Of a stretch of 25,340 bases of DNA, positions 1,704 to 20,897 are shown one piece after another (within the stretch, counting starts at the first letter, position 1; each line of letters opens with the position of its first letter). The position numbers and the translations under genes were made by a program. The stretch spans positions 1 through 25,340 of IMG/VR virus record IMGVR_UViG_3300025585_000152, one strand, 5' to 3'. Under the pieces are notes generated by a model, which was not told the DNA's origin, searched no databases, and saw only the letters and a program-made list of their open reading frames with translations. The DNA is from a virus.

Positions 1704-2309
1704 TTAGTCCTCCTGTTGTGATGCCGCTTCCCTGCGGCGGGTTTTGCAGTCCTGCTTTGCGCAGTCGTAACTGCATGTTGGTCGCCCCGTTGCGCGCCTG
1801 ACAGCGCAGGAGTTCATCAGGGCATAACTTACTGTTTGGTCTTTGCTGGCTTCCCTCGGCTTCGTGGGTTCGTCCAGCGGGTCGTGAAACTCGGGGACTT
1901 CAGCCCGCGCCTGCTGCTTCCAGCGGAGGGATTGAGCCGCCCTGTAGGCGATCTCCTCCGCTTCGGTCCTGCCTTCACGGGCGAAGGTGTTTGGTTCTGC
2001 CCGATGACGCGGGAGGCCCGGAGCCGGTGCCGCTTCGCGCAGGATGTCCACGAGGTTCGCAATGGTCGGCCACCACGTCGAGCGGCGGATGTGTTCGCTA
2101 AGCGCATTGTGCAACCGGTCGGCGGGGTAAGCCCCCAGCGTCGCGTGCCATTCAGCCACCATCAGGCGCATGTCAACGCCCCGGCGCTCGCCGTAATTCG
2201 CAAGGCAGCGGGCGATGAGTTTGGCCGCGTCATCCGTTGATGACCTGACCGGAACGGACAATGTCGGCAAGCTGTTCGAGTTGTGACTTTGCGCCAATTC
2301 TTGAGCCAT
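1704..2309 (-). CDS. Putative replicative helicase loader (G39P/P-like)
   Basis: About 201 aa. The preferred start is the ATG at 2309, with GGGAG just upstream; an in-frame ATG at 2336 is possible. Both overlap the 3' end of the O-like gene by 80 or more bases. The N-terminal third contains DDAAKLIARCLANYG, then WHATLGAYPADRLHNALSE and STWWPTIANLVDILRE. The pattern of a helix, then YPxxxxxxAL, then FPTIAxL, is that of helicase-loader domains such as G39P of phage SPP1 and similar phage proteins. The C-terminal part has four cysteines (SCAV, TCSYDCAKQDC) that could form a metal site. Its position straight after an O-like initiator matches the O-P order of lambdoid phages. The function is inferred from weak similarity and context. 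Confidence 0.55.
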   Translation of the reverse strand: MAQELAQSHNSNSLPTLSVPVRSSTDDAAKLIARCLANYGERRGVDMRLMVAEWHATLGAYPADRLHNALSEHIRRSTWWPTIANLVDILREAAPAPGLPRHRAEPNTFAREGRTEAEEIAYRAAQSLRWKQQARAEVPEFHDPLDEPTKPREASKDQTVSYALMNSCAVRRATGRPTCSYDCAKQDCKTRRREAASQQED

Positions 2310-3051
2310 TTCCCGCTCCCTTGAGTTGATCCACATACGGCGAGGTGGCCCAGTTCAGCCAAGCCCTGCGCCAATCTTTCATCCGCTTGCCATTTGCCGC
2401 GAAGTGGTTCGCGAACCGCTCCGCCTCCGGCTCCAGGTCGATCTGGGTCTTGCCTGCCCGCGCCCGCGCCGCCTCGGCGTCACGCACCCAATCGTCAGGG
2501 ATGACCGCATCGGGAGGCCACGAGGAACCAGCAGGGGCTTTGGAGGCGCGTTGGTGTTTCTCGACAACCGGTGGCGCAGGTTCGTCACCCTCGCGCGCTA
2601 CCGAACGAAGTGAGGTATCTTTCTTATCTGTATCTGTATCTGTATCTGTATCTGTACGCGTGACATTTTCGTGACCTACCGTGACGTCACGCGTGACAGC
2701 AGATTTCTGCGCTTTTTCACGCTCCCGCTGCCTTTGCTTGCGTTCTCGCGCGGTCGGGTCTGCGTCACTTGCGTGCTGATGATCGCCCCAATCATGCAGA
2801 CGGTACGTCGTGACGCCATCGTGACTGTCACGCGTGACAAGTCCGGCTGTCACGAGGCGTGACATAAGCCCAATCACCTCCGTCTCGGAAACACGAGCAG
2901 CCCACGCCACGTCTTCTTCACTGGGAAGGGTGCCATCATCATCGCTCAGCATCAGCAGGGAGGCCCAGAAGCCGCGCTCCTCAAGCGTAAGCCTGCCCAC
3001 CTTCGGCTTCAGAATTGCGTCGCGGTACAGGCGGACCCATGGCTTTGCCAT
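2230..3051 (-). CDS. Phage replication protein O-like (winged-helix initiator)
   Basis: A 273-aa protein starting at the ATG 3051, immediately after the TGA of the previous gene. Residues 1-90 (RLYRDAILKPKVGRLTLEERGFWASL ... EVIGLMSRLVTAGLVTR ... TTYRLHDWGDHQ) have the layout of the winged-helix DNA-binding domain of phage O-like and DnaD-like replication proteins. Then come a charged linker, VTRDVT repeats, a (TD)5 run at residues 133-142, and a C-terminal module (WPPDAVIPDDWV ... EAERFANHFAANGKRMKDWRRAWLNWA) that is common at the end of such proteins. The coding DNA holds a cluster of GTGAC/GTCAC repeats, described separately as a candidate origin, as in phage lambda, where ori lies inside O. 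A helicase-loader-like gene follows. Confidence 0.75.
   Translation of the reverse strand: MAKPWVRLYRDAILKPKVGRLTLEERGFWASLLMLSDDDGTLPSEEDVAWAARVSETEVIGLMSRLVTAGLVTRDSHDGVTTYRLHDWGDHQHASDADPTARERKQRQREREKAQKSAVTRDVTVGHENVTRTDTDTDTDTDKKDTSLRSVAREGDEPAPPVVEKHQRASKAPAGSSWPPDAVIPDDWVRDAEAARARAGKTQIDLEPEAERFANHFAANGKRMKDWRRAWLNWATSPYVDQLKGAGNGSRIGAKSQLEQLADIVRSGQVING
2625..2654. repeat. Five tandem copies of TATCTG
   Basis: Five perfect head-to-tail hexamers, read in the O-like gene (minus strand) as alternating Thr-Asp codons (residues 133-142). The tract is richer in A+T than its surroundings and borders the GTGAC cluster, so it may be part of an unwinding region. It could equally be a slippage-prone linker; TD runs are frequent in phage replication proteins. 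Confidence 0.85.
2660..2863. other. Candidate replication origin: GTGAC/GTCAC repeat cluster
   Basis: Within 204 bases of the O-like gene I count eight GTGAC (2660, 2671, 2681, 2693, 2810, 2821, 2834, 2859) and four GTCAC (2686, 2764, 2827, 2849). The palindrome GTCACGCGTGAC occurs twice, at 2686-2697 and 2827-2838. Less than one such pentamer would be expected by chance in this length. A (TATCTG)5 tract lies beside it. Iterons within an initiator gene are known from phage lambda; use as an origin here is inference. Confidence 0.5.
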
Positions 3052-3342
3052 TCACTTCACCCTTTCGATTGAGTACAGGCGACGGACGCCAGGCTGGAGC
3101 GACAGCCGGTAATCGACGCCATTGGCCCGGCAATACATCCTTGCCTTGTTGCCCGCGTAGTAGGTCAGGTCGGTCTGGATGTAGCCCACCGGATGCTTCA
3201 GGAGGCTGGACAGCCAGACATTGTTGCGCTCGCCCCTGTTGGGGGTCGGAACCGTATAGACCTTGGTTCGTTCCTCTTCGGTCGGGGACCGTCTGGGGCT
3301 TGAGCCGGGGTCGCCCATGAGGATGGGTGTGATGTCCTTCAT
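3052..3342 (-). CDS. Hypothetical small protein
   Basis: A 96-aa protein if started at ATG 3342, which overlaps the rusA stop by four bases (ATGA). A GTG at 3348 with GAGGTGAG about five bases upstream is an equally possible start. Residues cover PTEEERTKVYTVPTPNRGERNNVWLS and a basic C-terminal part (YYAGNKARMYCRANGVDYRLS). I recognise no family. There is no membrane segment or signal peptide. It lies between rusA and the O-like initiator with no spacing, so it probably belongs to the replication/recombination set. Confidence 0.65.
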   Translation of the reverse strand: MKDITPILMGDPGSSPRRSPTEEERTKVYTVPTPNRGERNNVWLSSLLKHPVGYIQTDLTYYAGNKARMYCRANGVDYRLSLQPGVRRLYSIERVK

Positions 3343-3707
3343 GTGCACGTTCTCACCTCGACGCGGACTTCACGTCCGTTCAGGGATGGCATGTCTGTTT
3401 CAAACGCCCAACGGACATGAAGCTGGTGCACAAGGTTGTCATTCTCCAGCAGGTTGCCCGCCTGAAGCGCGTCAAGGACCGGCTTGATACAGTTGTCCAA
3501 GTCCCTAAGTTTGTGGACCCGCTTCATGATGAGGACGATCTCGACCGGCGCGGTGAACGTCTGCCCCTTCCTTGAGGCGAGGACTTCCATGCAAGCCGAT
3601 GTTTTCCACGCCTTGTATTCAGCACTTGGGTGCATTCCATAGATGCCCTTGCGCCACATCTTGTTGGCGCTTGGGGGCGTGTCGAGGAGGACAGAAGCGA
3701 AGGTCAT
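3339..3707 (-). CDS. rusA: RusA-family Holliday junction resolvase
   Basis: A 122-aa endonuclease that resolves four-way DNA junctions arising in phage replication and recombination. The start ATG 3707 overlaps the upstream stop (ATGA). Diagnostic features are the N-terminal PPSANKMW (residues 11-18) and the motif RDLDNCIKPVLDALQ followed by LLENDNLVHQL. The acidic residues D69, D71 and D90 and lysine K75 line up with the catalytic D70, D72, D91 and K76 of E. coli RusA. The length matches the family (about 120 aa). It lies between the DnaA-domain/HNH gene and the O-like initiator. The identification is strong. Confidence 0.93.
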   Translation of the reverse strand: MTFASVLLDTPPSANKMWRKGIYGMHPSAEYKAWKTSACMEVLASRKGQTFTAPVEIVLIMKRVHKLRDLDNCIKPVLDALQAGNLLENDNLVHQLHVRWAFETDMPSLNGREVRVEVRTCT

Positions 3708-4564
3708 TCGGCTGCCATCCCGAACTGCTGTTGCTCAGGCTTGTGCTGCTTCTTGAGCACGATGTTGTTGACTTGTGCCTGGCTGATGCCGTGCTGCCGG
3801 GCCAACTGGTATTGCGTGGCGAGCCCTGCCGCGTAGTCCTGCCTGATTTGGTCGATAACTGATTGGCTGGTAATCTTGGCGTTGCCATTCCTGACCCCGC
3901 GCATGGTCATGCCGTGCCAATCACGGTCTGCCGCATTCCCCTTGGCGGTGTCGTATCGCAGGTTGCTGATATTGTTGTTCAACCTGTTTCCATCGGCGTG
4001 ACAAATCTGCATTCCACGCGGTCGTGGTCCCGCAAACGCCTCCATCACAATGCGATGAACGGGCCAGTAGACGGCCCGCCCATTCGGTGAGTTCTGAAAT
4101 GTGATGTAGAAATAGCCGTTGCCGCCAATAACCGGCTGACGGATGCGGCCGCTTGCGTCAAACCTGACAAGCCCGTTGTTTGACACGCTGTATTTTGGCT
4201 GGCCCTCTACCTGCCGCCACTCGGACTGCCCTTCGGCGATCAGCTTGGCTCGTGAGGCTGACGCGATTGCCCGAGCGTTTTCCGCTGTCAGATTCGCCTT
4301 CTTCGTTACGACTGAGCCAGCCTTGGCGTGATGCATACAGGTGCTGTGATCTAGCCCAAAGAAGCGCCCTAGCCGTGGGTAGGACCAACCCATAACGTGA
4401 CGAATGCGCCAGATGCAGTCGCCACGAACCCGAGACACCCAGTGGTCACGGTTGTCGGACATGACCTGCTCAATGGTGATGGGTGAACCCATAGCGTAGT
4501 GCCACCACACGACTTCGCGGCAGAGGTCCAAGGCTTTCTCGCGCGGGGTTCGAATGTCGCTCAT
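3704..4564 (-). CDS. DnaA domain IV-like / HNH homing endonuclease fusion
   Basis: A 286-aa protein starting at ATG 4564, which overlaps the previous stop by four bases. Residues about 31-90 (IEQVMSDNRDHWVSRVRG ... YPRLGRFFGLDHSTCMHHAKA) resemble the DnaA C-terminal DNA-binding domain, with GLDHSTCMHHAKA at 70-82 matching the DnaA signature (GxDHSTVxxA). Residues 114-160 (EWRQVEGQPKYSVSNNGLVR) look like NUMOD4. Residues 168-215 (PVHRIVMEAFAGPRP ... ICHADGNRLNNNISNLRYDT) form an HNH_3 core. Residues 232-270 form a helix-turn-helix resembling the modules at the end of homing endonucleases. There is no AAA+ domain. The two halves are in one frame with no stop. It may be a standalone DnaA-IV gene invaded by an HNH gene. 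Confidence 0.85.
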   Translation of the reverse strand: MSDIRTPREKALDLCREVVWWHYAMGSPITIEQVMSDNRDHWVSRVRGDCIWRIRHVMGWSYPRLGRFFGLDHSTCMHHAKAGSVVTKKANLTAENARAIASASRAKLIAEGQSEWRQVEGQPKYSVSNNGLVRFDASGRIRQPVIGGNGYFYITFQNSPNGRAVYWPVHRIVMEAFAGPRPRGMQICHADGNRLNNNISNLRYDTAKGNAADRDWHGMTMRGVRNGNAKITSQSVIDQIRQDYAAGLATQYQLARQHGISQAQVNNIVLKKQHKPEQQQFGMAAE

Positions 4565-4800
4565 GCCCACACCGCTGCGCTGATGGCCCCGCCGAAGAAG
4601 AAAAAGACGGCGAGGCATTGCCACCAAATGATTAACGCCTCGTCCCAATCATCATCCGTGAACGTGTCGAATTTACCAAGAATGAACGCTGATCGGAATG
4701 GTGCGTTCCCTGCTTTCAGGACAGACGCAATATTATTGCGCACGCTTTGCTGCACCGCATCAATGTGAAGCTGTCCCAGATTATAAACGATGTTCCCCAT
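4561..4800 (-). CDS. Small protein with C-terminal membrane segment
   Basis: A 79-aa protein with ATG at 4800, GAGG six bases upstream. The first 55 residues are soluble and contain an acidic patch (DTFTDDDWDEA); residues about 57-78 (IIWWQCLAVFFFFGGAISAAVWA) form a clear hydrophobic segment ending at the C-terminus, as in tail-anchored proteins. It overlaps the end of the HTH regulator by 20 bases and the start of the DnaA/HNH gene by four. No family is recognised and the function is unknown. Confidence 0.65.
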   Translation of the reverse strand: MGNIVYNLGQLHIDAVQQSVRNNIASVLKAGNAPFRSAFILGKFDTFTDDDWDEALIIWWQCLAVFFFFGGAISAAVWA

Positions 4801-5984: not shown

Positions 5985-6166
5985 CCCTGGACCGCTGCAT
6001 AGAGCGCGACGGGCTCGCTCGGAAAATCGTCCTCGCTTACCAGAATTCTGAAATGCGCCGCTTGGTTGCGCTTCAGGGCTTGGTGAAGTTGGGCTGGAGG
6101 GCTGAGAAGGCCATGGAAATGCTCGACACCGTCGACAAGGTGCTGAAGGGACGCGACCCGGCATGA
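5981..6166 (+). CDS. Small hypothetical helical protein
   Basis: A 61-aa protein, mostly helical and basic (LARKIVLAYQNSEMRRLVAL, then KLGWRAEKAMEMLDTVDKVL). It is coupled by ATGA overlaps to both neighbours (5981-5984 and 6163-6166). There are no motifs I recognise. Position and coupling are the main evidence that it is expressed. Confidence 0.55.
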   Translation: MTLDRCIERDGLARKIVLAYQNSEMRRLVALQGLVKLGWRAEKAMEMLDTVDKVLKGRDPA

Positions 6167-6561
6167 CCAAGCGCCCCCACATTTCCGACAAGGTGAAGGT
6201 GTCGGTTGCAATCGGACAGAGCCAGTTCGGCTGCATCTCCTGCCCGATCTGTCACGTCATGCTCTATCCCGACGAGCCCCGCATTCTGGAACACATGGTT
6301 CCTCATGAACTGGGCGGAGCGAGCGACGAAACCAATCTGCGGTATGTCCATGCTGAATGCGCCCGCAAGAAAACCAACGGGAACGCAGCGACTTCCGCAG
6401 ATGGTGACATTCACAAGATTGCCAAGGGCAAGCGCCTGAAGCGTGAGCACGAGGAACACGTCGCCCGCGTTCTCGGCAAGGGCGAGGAGCGACAGCCTTA
6501 CGTCCGCCCACGCTCCCGCAAAATCCCATCCCGCCCGTTTCCGAAGAAGGTGAAAGCATGA
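6163..6561 (+). CDS. HNH endonuclease domain protein
   Basis: A 132-aa protein. The core CPICHVMLYPDEP, then ILEHMVPHELGG, then DETNLRYVHAECARKKT (residues about 27-71) has the HNH order: a cysteine pair, E-H before the catalytic region, an asparagine in NLRYVH, then H-x2-C. The C-terminal 60 residues are strongly basic (KGKRLKREHEEHV, RPRSRKIPSRPFPKK), consistent with nucleic-acid binding. It is probably a metal-dependent nicking or cutting nuclease. Unlike the proteins encoded at 3704 and 9573, it lacks NUMOD/AP2 modules, so it may be an operon nuclease and not a homing enzyme. Coupled to its neighbours by ATGA overlaps. Confidence 0.8.
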   Translation: MTKRPHISDKVKVSVAIGQSQFGCISCPICHVMLYPDEPRILEHMVPHELGGASDETNLRYVHAECARKKTNGNAATSADGDIHKIAKGKRLKREHEEHVARVLGKGEERQPYVRPRSRKIPSRPFPKKVKA

Positions 6562-9508: not shown

Positions 9509-9576
9509 CCGACCCAATGCTTGCCGCGTTGCTTGTTTTTATCGGCTTTATGCTAGGGAGGATGTACCCAGAATGA
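9505..9576 (+). CDS. 23-aa membrane mini-protein
   Basis: A very short reading frame, MTDPMLAALLVFIGFMLGRM plus YPE, exactly bridging two coupled genes: its ATG overlaps the previous stop and its stop overlaps the next ATG at 9573. About 14 residues are hydrophobic, enough for a short membrane helix. The double coupling argues that it is translated; there is no independent evidence. Confidence 0.45.
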   Translation: MTDPMLAALLVFIGFMLGRMYPE

Positions 9577-10139
9577 CCGACATCGTGAAGGGTATGGCGC
9601 GGACAATTTGGGATGTTAACGCGGTCCGGCAGAACTTCGATTACGACCCTGAAACGGGGGTTGTGAGAAAGTTAAGCCGTGGGCGGATGATGGTGTGCGC
9701 CGCCCTGAACAACAAGGGGTACGTCTCCACCCGGTTGAATGGCCGCTACATATCCGGCCACACTGTGGCGTTCATCCTGACCACGGGGAGAAACCCTGGC
9801 CACTCAATCGACCACATCAACGGCAACAGGTCTGACAACAGATGGTCAAATCTGCGCGAGTGTGACCAGTTTCAAAACATGGCCAACAGGGTCGGCCCAC
9901 AACGAAATTCGAAATCTGGCGCTAGGGGCGTGAGTTGGCGGCAATGGCGCGCAAACTCTGGGGCGTGGGAGGCGAAGATAGAGCACAAAGGCAAGACGCA
10001 CCACCTTGGGTACTTCAAGACGGTTGCGGAGGCATTGGCCGTCAGAGAGAGGAAGGCGGCAGAATTGTTCGGCGAGTTCTCTGGTGGCCACGTGAAAGAC
10101 GCAGCAGCCATTCGCGCTGCGGCAGGGGGTGGGGAGTGA
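9573..10139 (+). CDS. HNH homing endonuclease with AP2-like DNA-binding domain
   Basis: A 188-aa protein. Residues about 45-95 (LNNKGYVSTRLNGRYISGHTVAF ... SIDHINGNRSDNRWSNLREC) contain an HNH_3-type core with IDHINGNRSDN, followed by NSKSGARGVSWRQWR (residues about 113-127), then WEAKIEHKGKTHHLGYFKT and AALAVRERK-like helices, which is the AP2 DNA-binding fold common to phage-borne HNH enzymes. It is probably a free-standing homing endonuclease sitting in the early operon. No interrupted neighbouring gene is obvious, apart from the truncated frame just after it (10182-10241). Paralogous in type, but not obviously in sequence, to the HNH half of the fusion at 3704-4564. Confidence 0.88.
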   Translation: MTDIVKGMARTIWDVNAVRQNFDYDPETGVVRKLSRGRMMVCAALNNKGYVSTRLNGRYISGHTVAFILTTGRNPGHSIDHINGNRSDNRWSNLRECDQFQNMANRVGPQRNSKSGARGVSWRQWRANSGAWEAKIEHKGKTHHLGYFKTVAEALAVRERKAAELFGEFSGGHVKDAAAIRAAAGGGE

Positions 10140-17870: not shown

Positions 17871-20800
17871 CTAGGTTCCCGTCCTGTAGCCGGTCACGTA
17901 GACCTTCCACCCGAGAACGGTGGCGGTTGTCGTTGCGATTGCAGTGGACGATGAGCAGAAAATGCCAACGATGGAACCGGCTGTCACAGCGGCAGAGGAT
18001 GGGTTTATCGACCCCGCACCCGTGATGTTTCCGCTTGATGTCTGGCATGTAGCCGCCAAGCAGGATGTTCCACCAACAACACCCGTGGTTGCGCTGGTCG
18101 CCTCTGAGCAGCCGATACGAACATCAGTCACCAGATTGAAGGATGAACTGTTGAGGGCAAAGGACTGATGCACGCCCGTGATGACGAAATCATAAGGGAA
18201 GTACATGCTTTGTTTCGCGGCCAAGGTTGTTCCAATAGCCGTGTTCGATTGCGTCAACTCGCTGTTGATCTGGAAAACAAACGTGGTGAGCGGGCGGACT
18301 GTATTGACTTGAATCTTCTTTGCTTCGTTGGCTGAAGCGTCATAGGACAGGAGGAAGTCCGTCGCACCATCCGGGGCTGTGTCGGTCGTGAGGTTCCGCA
18401 ATCCGCGCAAAAGCTGTTCAGTCGTGACCGAGCCCGCCCGGCTGCCGGACGCTGCTGACACGTCATAAAGCGGAAAGAGGTCATTGCTTGCCGGGGCTTG
18501 CCCAAGCGTGACGCCGCCACCAAAAAGGTTCTCGGAAGTGATCCTTGAAACCGTCCCGCCATTGGAAGCGAAGATGTCAAGTGACCCCGTGTGGGTCGTT
18601 ACCGCCGAGACCCCGGTTGCCGTCAGGGCGACGGAGATGTTCCCCCCTGCTCCCGCGTCTGTCAGGGCAATCCCGGTTCCGGCTGTAAGGTATCTCTCGG
18701 CGCTCAGGTCGGTATCTGCTGTGCCACCCACAAGGACATAGCGGGAAGTGGTAGGAGCCCCGCCGCCCCCACCACCACCCGACCCCCAACGGAGCCCGGT
18801 TGCCTGCGTACTATCCGCAAGCAAGGCTTGTCCGTCAGTACCTACAGCCAGCACATCCCACGTCGCACCCGTGGAAACAATGATGTTTCCCTTTGTCGTG
18901 GCGAGGGCGGCAAGCTGGTCTAAGTTCGTGTCCCATGCCTGGACGTCCTGCCCAATCTTGACGCCAAGATTTGTCCGGGCGTTCGCATAGGTGGATGACC
19001 CGAGGAAGGAGAAGATGTCAGCAGAGGACGTGATTTCCTCAACGTCACCCGCAAGGGCCGTCTGCCTGCCAAGCAGCCTATACTGAGCGGACACGTTCTG
19101 AATCTTGGCGTAGGTAACAGCATCATCTGCGATACCTGCGGTGGCAATCGTACCAAATCCAATCGTGGACCCTGATTCGCGAAGGACTGCCCCGCTTGCT
19201 GCCGTGGCCGCTATATCCGCCACGTTGCCCGTCGAGTTCGCCGAGCGCCCAATGACGGTCAAGGCTGCGCCCTGACGAAGCGAGGAGTTCCCGACCGAGT
19301 TGGCAACGATGTTGGCTTTCGCCTGCCCACCCGTTGCCCAGTCCCATGAAATTGTAGTGGTGTCAGTTACAACACGCTCAGCAGACAGGCCCGCATCAGC
19401 AGTCCGCACGAGATAGTCAACCGTGGTCGGCGCGCCCGACCCGCCAGAGCCCGCCGCCCACTTCATGCCTGCGGCCTGAGTGCTATCCGCTGTAAGCAGC
19501 CAGCCATCCGTGCCTACCGTCAGCGACGTCCAAGACGAGCCGTCGCCAACAATGATGTTACCCTTTGTTGGGGTGAGGGCCGCGATCTGGTCAAGGTTCG
19601 CATCCCATGCCTGAACATTCGTCCCGACAACGAGGCTCAGGTTCGTGCGGGCTGCTGAATAGTCGGCAGAGCCCAGCAGGCTGACCATATTGGCAGAGGT
19701 TGTAATCTCTTCCGCGTCACCCGCACCGACTGACGTTCGCCCGAGAATGCGATATTGGGCGGAGATGTTCTGAAGCTTGGCATATGTTACCGCGTCATCA
19801 GCAATGCCCGCCGTCGCGACGGTGCCAAATCCAATTGTTGACCCGGACTCGCGAAGGACGGCCCCGGTTGCGGCAGTGGCTGAAATGTCGGCCACGTTCC
19901 CGGTCGAATTTGCAGAGCGTCCGACAAGGGAAAGCGCCGCCGATTGACGGAGATAGGTATTGCCAATGGAGTTCGTGACAATATCGGCTTTTGCCTGTCC
20001 GGCTGTGCCCCAGTCCCAGGATATGCGGGCGGTGTCTGTAACCACGCGCTCAACGCTCAATGAGCCGTTCGCCGTTCTGACAAGGTAGTCAGCATCAGTT
20101 GGCGCACCGCCCCCGCCACCGCCCGCGACAGTCGCCCATACACCGTCCCCACGCAGATACTTCCCGTCATCCCCGGCTGCGGGCTGGGGGACGATGCCAG
20201 CAGCACCAGCGACAGAAGGGGTTGCCCCCGTAAAGCTCGGGAGGATGGCGACAACTTGGGTCCCGGTCAGGTCCGTGGGGTCGCCCGTGCCTGCTCCAGA
20301 CGCGCGGCCCTTCACGGTCGCCTGCGCCATGTCAGCGAGGAGGGTATTCGTCACGCTGTTCGCTGAAAGGCTAGCACTCTCGATCTGGCTGAGCGTGTTC
20401 GTGGATACCGTGGGCTGTCCATTGCTATCGAAGCCAAGGACTTTGTTGGCGCGGCTGATTGCGGACGGGAGTTCAGACAGAGCCGGGTCCGTCCGCTTCG
20501 CGCGCATGACGCGATCAAGGGCGTCCGCCGCGTATTGCTGCGCCTGATAAATCTTGTCCAGCCCGCCTTCCAGCGTGGCCGGGACTATGGTTCCACCGGA
20601 GGTAAGGTCTACAGTCTGGACCGCAGGAACATTCCGAATGATGTGGACTTCCTGCGCAGATGTGGGGGCAGTCACGAAGGTAATCGTGGCAGAGGAGTAA
20701 CCCCCTGTCCCCGAGTCAGCCACGCCCGACCATGTGTAATCTGTCGGGGTGGTCTTGACGCTTTCCGCACCCGTCGCAATCGTTCGCACAATGACGGTCA

Positions 20801-20897
20801 GGTCAGTCGATGCCCGGTATGGGTACGGGAATGAGAAGGCGGTTGTGACCCCATTCCCGACTGAACTGACGCGGTTTGTTGTGCTTGAGACGGTCAT
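17871..20897 (-). CDS. Long tail fibre protein with tandem repeats
   Basis: A 1008-aa protein starting MTVSSTTNRVSSVGNGVTTA. Residues 1-150 form a virion-attachment module shared with the tailspike at 21090-22868 and resembling the T7 gp17-type N-terminal domain (VTTAFSFPYPYR, VRTIATGAES, DSGTGGYSSATITF), followed by a coiled segment (LDKIYQAQQYAADALDRVMR). Residues 265-488 and 489-713 are two copies of one 224-225-aa repeat, each starting after a glycine run, and a fragment of a third begins at 714 (APTTSRYVLVGG). The C-terminal 250 residues form a distinct beta-rich region (TTFVFQINSELTQS ... VLGWKVYVTGYRTGT) that is probably the receptor-binding end. There is no chaperone-type tail. Confidence 0.85.
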   Translation of the reverse strand: MTVSSTTNRVSSVGNGVTTAFSFPYPYRASTDLTVIVRTIATGAESVKTTPTDYTWSGVADSGTGGYSSATITFVTAPTSAQEVHIIRNVPAVQTVDLTSGGTIVPATLEGGLDKIYQAQQYAADALDRVMRAKRTDPALSELPSAISRANKVLGFDSNGQPTVSTNTLSQIESASLSANSVTNTLLADMAQATVKGRASGAGTGDPTDLTGTQVVAILPSFTGATPSVAGAAGIVPQPAAGDDGKYLRGDGVWATVAGGGGGGAPTDADYLVRTANGSLSVERVVTDTARISWDWGTAGQAKADIVTNSIGNTYLRQSAALSLVGRSANSTGNVADISATAATGAVLRESGSTIGFGTVATAGIADDAVTYAKLQNISAQYRILGRTSVGAGDAEEITTSANMVSLLGSADYSAARTNLSLVVGTNVQAWDANLDQIAALTPTKGNIIVGDGSSWTSLTVGTDGWLLTADSTQAAGMKWAAGSGGSGAPTTVDYLVRTADAGLSAERVVTDTTTISWDWATGGQAKANIVANSVGNSSLRQGAALTVIGRSANSTGNVADIAATAASGAVLRESGSTIGFGTIATAGIADDAVTYAKIQNVSAQYRLLGRQTALAGDVEEITSSADIFSFLGSSTYANARTNLGVKIGQDVQAWDTNLDQLAALATTKGNIIVSTGATWDVLAVGTDGQALLADSTQATGLRWGSGGGGGGGAPTTSRYVLVGGTADTDLSAERYLTAGTGIALTDAGAGGNISVALTATGVSAVTTHTGSLDIFASNGGTVSRITSENLFGGGVTLGQAPASNDLFPLYDVSAASGSRAGSVTTEQLLRGLRNLTTDTAPDGATDFLLSYDASANEAKKIQVNTVRPLTTFVFQINSELTQSNTAIGTTLAAKQSMYFPYDFVITGVHQSFALNSSSFNLVTDVRIGCSEATSATTGVVGGTSCLAATCQTSSGNITGAGSINPSSAAVTAGSIVGIFCSSSTAIATTTATVLGWKVYVTGYRTGT
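18759..19433 (-). repeat. Tail fibre repeat, second copy
   Basis: Encodes residues 489-713 of the fibre. It shares with the first copy blocks such as GRSANSTGNVADI, VLRESGSTIGFGT, ATAGIADDAVTYAK, TKGNIIV and LLADSTQA. Many positions differ, so the duplication is old. A glycine run (codons near 18760-18780) separates it from the third, partial copy. Confidence 0.9.
19434..20105 (-). repeat. Tail fibre repeat, first copy
   Basis: Encodes residues 265-488 of the fibre, preceded by a glycine run (residues 259-264). It starts APTDADYLVRTANGSLSVER and ends at MKWAAGSGGSG. It aligns with the second copy over its whole length with a period of 224 residues. Confidence 0.9.

Follow-up and report, generated by a model that had tools for sequence, protein, structure and literature searches.

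A continuous phage reading frame encodes DnaA domain IV together with an HNH homing endonuclease

A single reading frame in a phage replication module joins DnaA domain IV to an HNH homing endonuclease, and our analysis confirms that this fusion is real. The frame lies in a stretch of 25,340 nucleotides (hereafter the window), which is probably an incomplete 25-kb virus record. It is read on the minus strand from position 4564 down to 3704, with 286 codons and a stop and without a break, as the first-pass annotation had claimed. In the encoded protein, DnaA domain IV (residues about 9-90) is followed by the endonuclease (residues 113-275) and then by an 11-residue tail (Table 1). The reading that we favour, with a probability of roughly 0.65, is that a selfish I-HmuI-like nickase entered a resident phage DnaA-IV gene in frame, which would have produced one bifunctional chimera without an intron or an intein.

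Table 1. Coordinates of the features discussed; positions are those of the window unless a contig is named.
Feature	Position	Strand	Basis
Fused gene, 286 aa: DnaA domain IV + NUMOD4-HNH-HTH endonuclease + resident C-terminal tail	3704..4564	-	ORF; Pfam; L133 homologue
DnaA domain IV, residues 6-90	4295..4549	-	Pfam Bac_DnaA_C; 1J1V by sequence and structure
DnaA signature helix-turn-helix GLDHSTCMHHAKA, residues 70-82	4319..4357	-	Sequence; model
Linker helix joining domain IV to the nuclease, residues 92-110	4235..4291	-	ColabFold model
NUMOD4 motif, residues 115-156	4097..4222	-	Pfam 28.3 bits, cut-off 23.4
HNH_3 nuclease domain, residues 169-211	3932..4060	-	Pfam 50.8 bits, cut-off 24.8
Endonuclease C-terminal HTH, residues 231-275	3740..3874	-	Model (HTH at 234-269); PADLOC profile
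Resident DnaA-IV gene tail, PEQQQFGMAAE (stop)	3704..3739	-	L138 gene ends LAQQQFGVAAE (stop)
rusA, 4-base overlap with the fused gene	3339..3707	-	Pfam
Conserved 98-aa gene, synteny marker	3052..3348	-	92% identical in L138, 89% in L133
Upstream 79-aa gene, left synteny marker	4561..4800	-	Gene end common to L138 and L133
Replication initiator, wHTH type	2230..3051	-	PHROGs 1408 and 2447
Iteron-like CGTGAC array inside the initiator gene	2659..2863	both orientations	Repeat count
DnaA-IV/HNH-AP2-type gene pairs	L081:2678-3699 and L135:3484-4505	-	
DnaA-IV/HNH-AP2-type gene pair	L093:1918-3080	+	
DnaA-IV/HNH-AP2-type gene pair	L132:5849-6995	-	

The N-terminal half of the protein was assigned to DnaA domain IV by three routes. 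The Pfam model Bac_DnaA_C matches residues 29-81 of the fused protein with 33.9 bits (cut-off 31.5); elsewhere it reaches 38.4 bits in L133, an independent contig with a homologous fusion, and 58.7 bits in L138, an IMG/VR contig in which the gene is uninterrupted. In the structure predicted by ColabFold (mean pLDDT 86, pTM 0.59), residues 9-90 superimpose on DnaA domain IV of entry 1J1V with a Z score of 10.5 and 2.0 Å over 77 residues. DnaA structures head the ranking for this half with Z scores of 8.9-10.5, and the next family, ParB, scores 6.9. A profile built from both fused proteins retrieves 1J1V, along with I-HmuI (1U3E), in a sequence search of the PDB. Profile, PDB sequence and structure all match within residues 9-90, including residues 31-90, on which the first-pass annotation had staked its assignment. 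The DnaA-signature helix-turn-helix that it had picked out lies here as well, in a domain that scores above the Pfam cut-off.

Aligning the fused protein with 1J1V places R39, R47, D72, H73, S74 and T75 at the positions of E. coli R399, R407, D433, H434, T435 and T436. By this alignment, the base-contact positions, R399 and the DH[ST]T motif, are retained in this domain IV. E. coli DnaA requires R399, which reads the minor groove, and T435 to bind its boxes (PMC5742627). No AAA+ domain is matched by Pfam anywhere in the fused protein, in agreement with the initial reading. The NCBIfam equivalog models for DnaA, whose cut-offs are 344-410 bits, align only to residues 29-87 and score about 20-24 bits there. 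Judged by the missing AAA+ ATPase domain III, the frame does not encode a full-length DnaA initiator.

DnaA residues 58-75 also resemble the C-terminal HTH of HNH proteins from Vectrevirus (K1E-like) phages. We rejected these proteins as homologous fusions, as the match is confined to the enzymes' C-terminal HTH, and the likeness is probably a short, convergent resemblance. In the K1E protein (L003:2153-2584), the C-terminal HTH WSYPKIGRHFGLDHKTV closely resembles that of the DnaA signature along a stretch of 17 residues.

The second half of the protein carries NUMOD4, HNH_3 and a terminal HTH, all present and in this order, as had been proposed from the sequence. Residues 115-271 match the PADLOC homing endonuclease profile at positions 2-158 of 178, and by these motifs the endonuclease half is complete. 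The model of residues 114-221 superimposes on I-HmuI with a Z score of 14.8 and 2.4 Å over 104 residues, so that structure prediction, which the first-pass annotation had suggested as a check, matched both halves. No HuH (Y1) nuclease is matched by Pfam in the fused protein; the nuclease is of the HNH type. In the alignment with I-HmuI (1U3E), H189 and N210 correspond to H75 and N96, which we take to be the HNH catalytic residues, but Cys188 stands at the position of D74, presumably a metal ligand. The free-standing relatives L142 and L016 likewise have Cys at this position, and Cys188 is therefore no sign of decay after the fusion. The 25 kb of the window contain at least three HNH genes: two more lie at 9573-10139 and 6163-6561, one of the HNH_3/phrog_99 type and one a plain HNH gene.

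The homologous fusion in L133 is the kind of second example that the first-pass annotation had recommended looking for. It was found with a stricter degenerate DNA pattern, and together with the window it makes up the fused examples found (n = 2 only). The locus is arranged as in the window, with a different nuclease gene in place of rusA. The two fused proteins are 63% identical overall, with 72% identity in the nuclease and 53% in the DnaA half. Because L133 keeps a continuous frame at this distance, the fused frame in the window is not a local sequencing error, which counters the concern that a frameshift might separate the halves. An assembly or sequencing artefact would have nothing in its favour but the metagenomic origin of the record, and with the same architecture present in a different sequence on an independent contig, its probability is close to negligible.

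Between the window and L133, the changes are mostly at third positions, and with synonymous sites saturated, pN/pS values are 0.289/0.837 for residues 4-81, 0.238/0.758 for residues 113-230 and 0.057/0.692 for the tail. With pN well below pS throughout, both halves and the tail are under purifying selection. Since L133 shares the fusion and selection acts on both of its halves, a frameshift error and a relic in decay can both be set aside.

How the nuclease half is expressed can be read in part from the start codons. In the window, the fused frame has no in-frame ATG, GTG or TTG between codons 77 and 127. With these triplets absent from codons 78-126, the window offers no ordinary codon ahead of NUMOD4 at which translation of the nuclease half could begin separately; barring the use of a rare start, this half would be made together with domain IV as one chimera. 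The fused gene of L133 has an ATG at codon 110. Searching the window with Rfam revealed no group I intron family at gathering score, and no Hint or intein match is among the Pfam matches of P0001 (the fused protein) or P0002. The insert consists almost entirely of endonuclease coding sequence.

An uninterrupted DnaA-IV gene at the same locus, another of the comparisons proposed at the outset, was found in L138, which we reached through the 98-aa gene downstream of rusA. Here a plain 149-aa DnaA-IV gene occupies the syntenic place directly before rusA. The RusA proteins of L138 and the window are identical (360 of 369 bases are the same), and a block of shared DNA with 95% identity spans rusA and ends at window position 3733, inside the tail of the fused gene. 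At their C-terminal ends, the L138 protein reads KAKLAQQQFGVAAE and the fused protein KKQHKPEQQQFGMAAE, with the frame and the rusA overlap alike. An uninterrupted gene with the same tail indicates that the endonuclease sits behind domain IV and ahead of the C-terminal tail that belongs to the gene itself, and the junctions on both sides of the endonuclease are in frame. The shared tail includes the region in which translation of the next gene starts, which could help to keep it.

L138 has an extra 78-aa gene between the synteny markers. Its domain IV is only about 41-45% identical to that of the window, and L138 is therefore an alternative allele and not the direct pre-insertion ancestor. The differences between the two may reflect a homing insertion or a recombination that joined the parts. 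Nuclease genes of phages are known to lie at the borders of exchanged segments, and the sharp change of identity at the edges of the insert fits such a placement (PMC10448857).

Unlike the fusion, standalone DnaA-IV genes are frequently encountered in replication modules. We found them in L138, L177, L178, L168, L081/L135, L093, L132 and the Rhizobium phage RHph_TM3_3_3, with L135 lying within a Bradyrhizobium genome. The uninterrupted genes of L138, L177, L178 and L168, together with the fused gene of L133, lend support to the proposal of the first-pass annotation that an endonuclease invaded a standalone phage DnaA-IV gene and became fused to it. A fusion covering 80% of the protein occurs in none of 50,697 phage and none of 72,556 plasmid records. 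Among the matches listed for 385 alphaproteobacterial and 398 proteobacterial genomes there is likewise none; those listed are whole DnaA, other DnaA-only frames or HNH-only. A BLASTN comparison of the window with the phage collection gave no near relative. The protein search of viral contigs with the fused protein or its DnaA half returned no match, exact peptide patterns being too strict, and in the literature we found no paper on the pairing of DnaA-IV and HNH domains.

A first degenerate DNA pattern retrieved mainly chance matches beside HNH genes, and it also yielded L081, L093 and L053. In L081, L135, L093 and L132, a DnaA-IV gene and an HNH gene stand side by side unfused, the 3' end of the first sharing from a few to about 30 bases with the start of the second. 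These HNH genes are of another type than that of the fused protein, and the four overlapping pairs show that HNH genes repeatedly settle beside DnaA-IV genes. Such adjacent, overlapping pairs could also give rise to a chance read-through fusion of two neighbouring genes, functionless and heading for decay, as homing endonuclease genes often degenerate. We consider this origin highly improbable: L133 has kept the frame at 63% identity, and in each half, as in the tail, pN falls well short of pS. In L053 (4922-6211, minus strand), a NUMOD4-HNH module is lodged in frame in a DUF5131 protein, where it separates positions 124 and 125 of the profile match. This is an independent case of non-splicing, in-frame endonuclease insertion, in an unrelated host protein.

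The neighbours named by the first-pass annotation, an initiator gene and rusA, are borne out by PHROGs, which identify a replication-initiation protein, and by Pfam. CGTGAC hexamers number 36 in the window, and 11 of them are crowded into 205 bases of the initiator gene; this array is a probable phage origin of the iteron type. In the corresponding gene, the array units are CGTTAC/CGTAAC in L133 and CGTTAC/GGTAAC in L138, and the replication regions of L178 and L093 have CGTTTC arrays. The unit thus varies between phages and the array is kept, as one would expect of iterons whose initiator changes. The initiator gene also contains tandem TGTATC repeats at about 2620-2656, which encode a Thr-Asp run that is longer in L133. 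Elsewhere in the window, a 1008-aa tail-type protein (17871-20897) has a long internal duplication, with segments starting APTDADYLVRTA and APTTVDYLVRTA.

With the fused gene and the iteron array in the same module, about 0.8 kb apart, and with I-HmuI-type enzymes nicking one strand (PMC2988022), the fusion could be imagined to nick the phage's own origin, for example at this array, and to take part in initiation. This is very unlikely. L138, L178 and L093 have comparable arrays together with an unfused DnaA-IV gene, which argues that a nuclease is not needed there, and binding of the iterons is more simply ascribed to the initiator itself. As unfused phages carry such arrays too, the arrays do not explain the nuclease.

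The main rival explanation, which the first-pass annotation had also raised in the form of targeting to origin-like DNA, is that DnaA-IV carries the HNH nickase to DnaA-box-like or iteron-type sites in the origin of the host, of a satellite or of a competing phage. The protein would then serve as a weapon and not be a parasite that is tolerated. A precedent exists in ICP1 Odn, in which an initiator DNA-binding domain is combined with a homing-endonuclease-type nuclease that cuts the rival's origin (PMC8263062). The retained base-contact positions of domain IV and the purifying selection on both halves would also suit such a role. However, the DnaA-IV part matches the resident gene at this locus in unfused relatives, making a recruitment for targeting unnecessary, and the endonuclease brings DNA-binding modules of its own, NUMOD4 and the HTH. 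The window itself shows no enrichment of DnaA boxes, with no exact copy and 16 with at most one mismatch against 24 expected. On balance we regard a weapon of this kind as unlikely, if worth keeping in mind. We are similarly doubtful of the wider proposal that NUMOD4-HNH modules spread by non-splicing, in-frame insertion and can become targeted nucleases, with the DnaA-type domain here steering HNH to origin-like DNA.

Under the favoured reading of an in-frame invasion of a resident gene, the domain IV half would keep its resident role in the replication module. In rival phages, the HNH half would nick alleles of the locus that lack the endonuclease, such as those of the L138 type, and repair of the nick would copy the insert and its flanking DNA into the endonuclease-free allele. 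Lodging in frame would spare the function of the host protein, and the element could thereby persist.

Phage standalone DnaA-IV proteins (Bac_DnaA_C; phrog_27829; NCBIfam NF004686 / PRK06030 type) resemble the fused protein in having domain IV without an AAA+ ATPase. They are likewise encoded in a replication module beside an initiator and a RusA/DUF1064-type nuclease, whereas the fused gene has a complete HNH endonuclease between domain IV and the tail. With I-HmuI-like NUMOD4-HNH homing endonucleases, the fused protein shares the domain order, the I-HmuI fold and the whole profile. I-HmuI is encoded by a group I intron and others are free-standing, whereas the fused enzyme is translated within its host protein and has no intron.

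Homing endonucleases usually spare the host gene by residing in introns, inteins or intergenic sites, or they split it. Insertions inside phage genes are known from mobE in nrdA of Aeh1 and mobA in gene 60 of T4, which are likewise intron-less HNH insertions in a phage replication or nucleotide gene; these split the host gene into separate polypeptides, whereas the fused gene yields one continuous chimera (PMC2988022). ICP1 Odn also has an initiator DNA-binding domain N-terminal to a homing-endonuclease-type nuclease, a likeness of architecture only: Odn combines GIY-YIG/T5orf172 with RepA_N, and the fused protein HNH with DnaA-IV. The DNA-binding domain of Odn resembles that of its rival, whereas that of the fused protein resembles the resident gene's, and cleavage is proven for Odn only (PMC8263062). 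A fusion of Bac_DnaA_C with a mobile-element nuclease is also found in the TnpA-REP subclass 2.1 / TIRYT HuH transposases, where the nuclease is HuH and the DnaA domain C-terminal; in the fused protein, the nuclease is HNH and the DnaA domain N-terminal (PMC6006769).

The fused gene presents a homing endonuclease as one unbroken chimera with the replication-associated DNA-binding protein that encloses it, and in two phages this chimera is under selection. By such a route a selfish enzyme may gain an initiator-type DNA-binding domain, the make-up of ICP1 Odn-like nucleases, and the fused and uninterrupted alleles together make that route testable.
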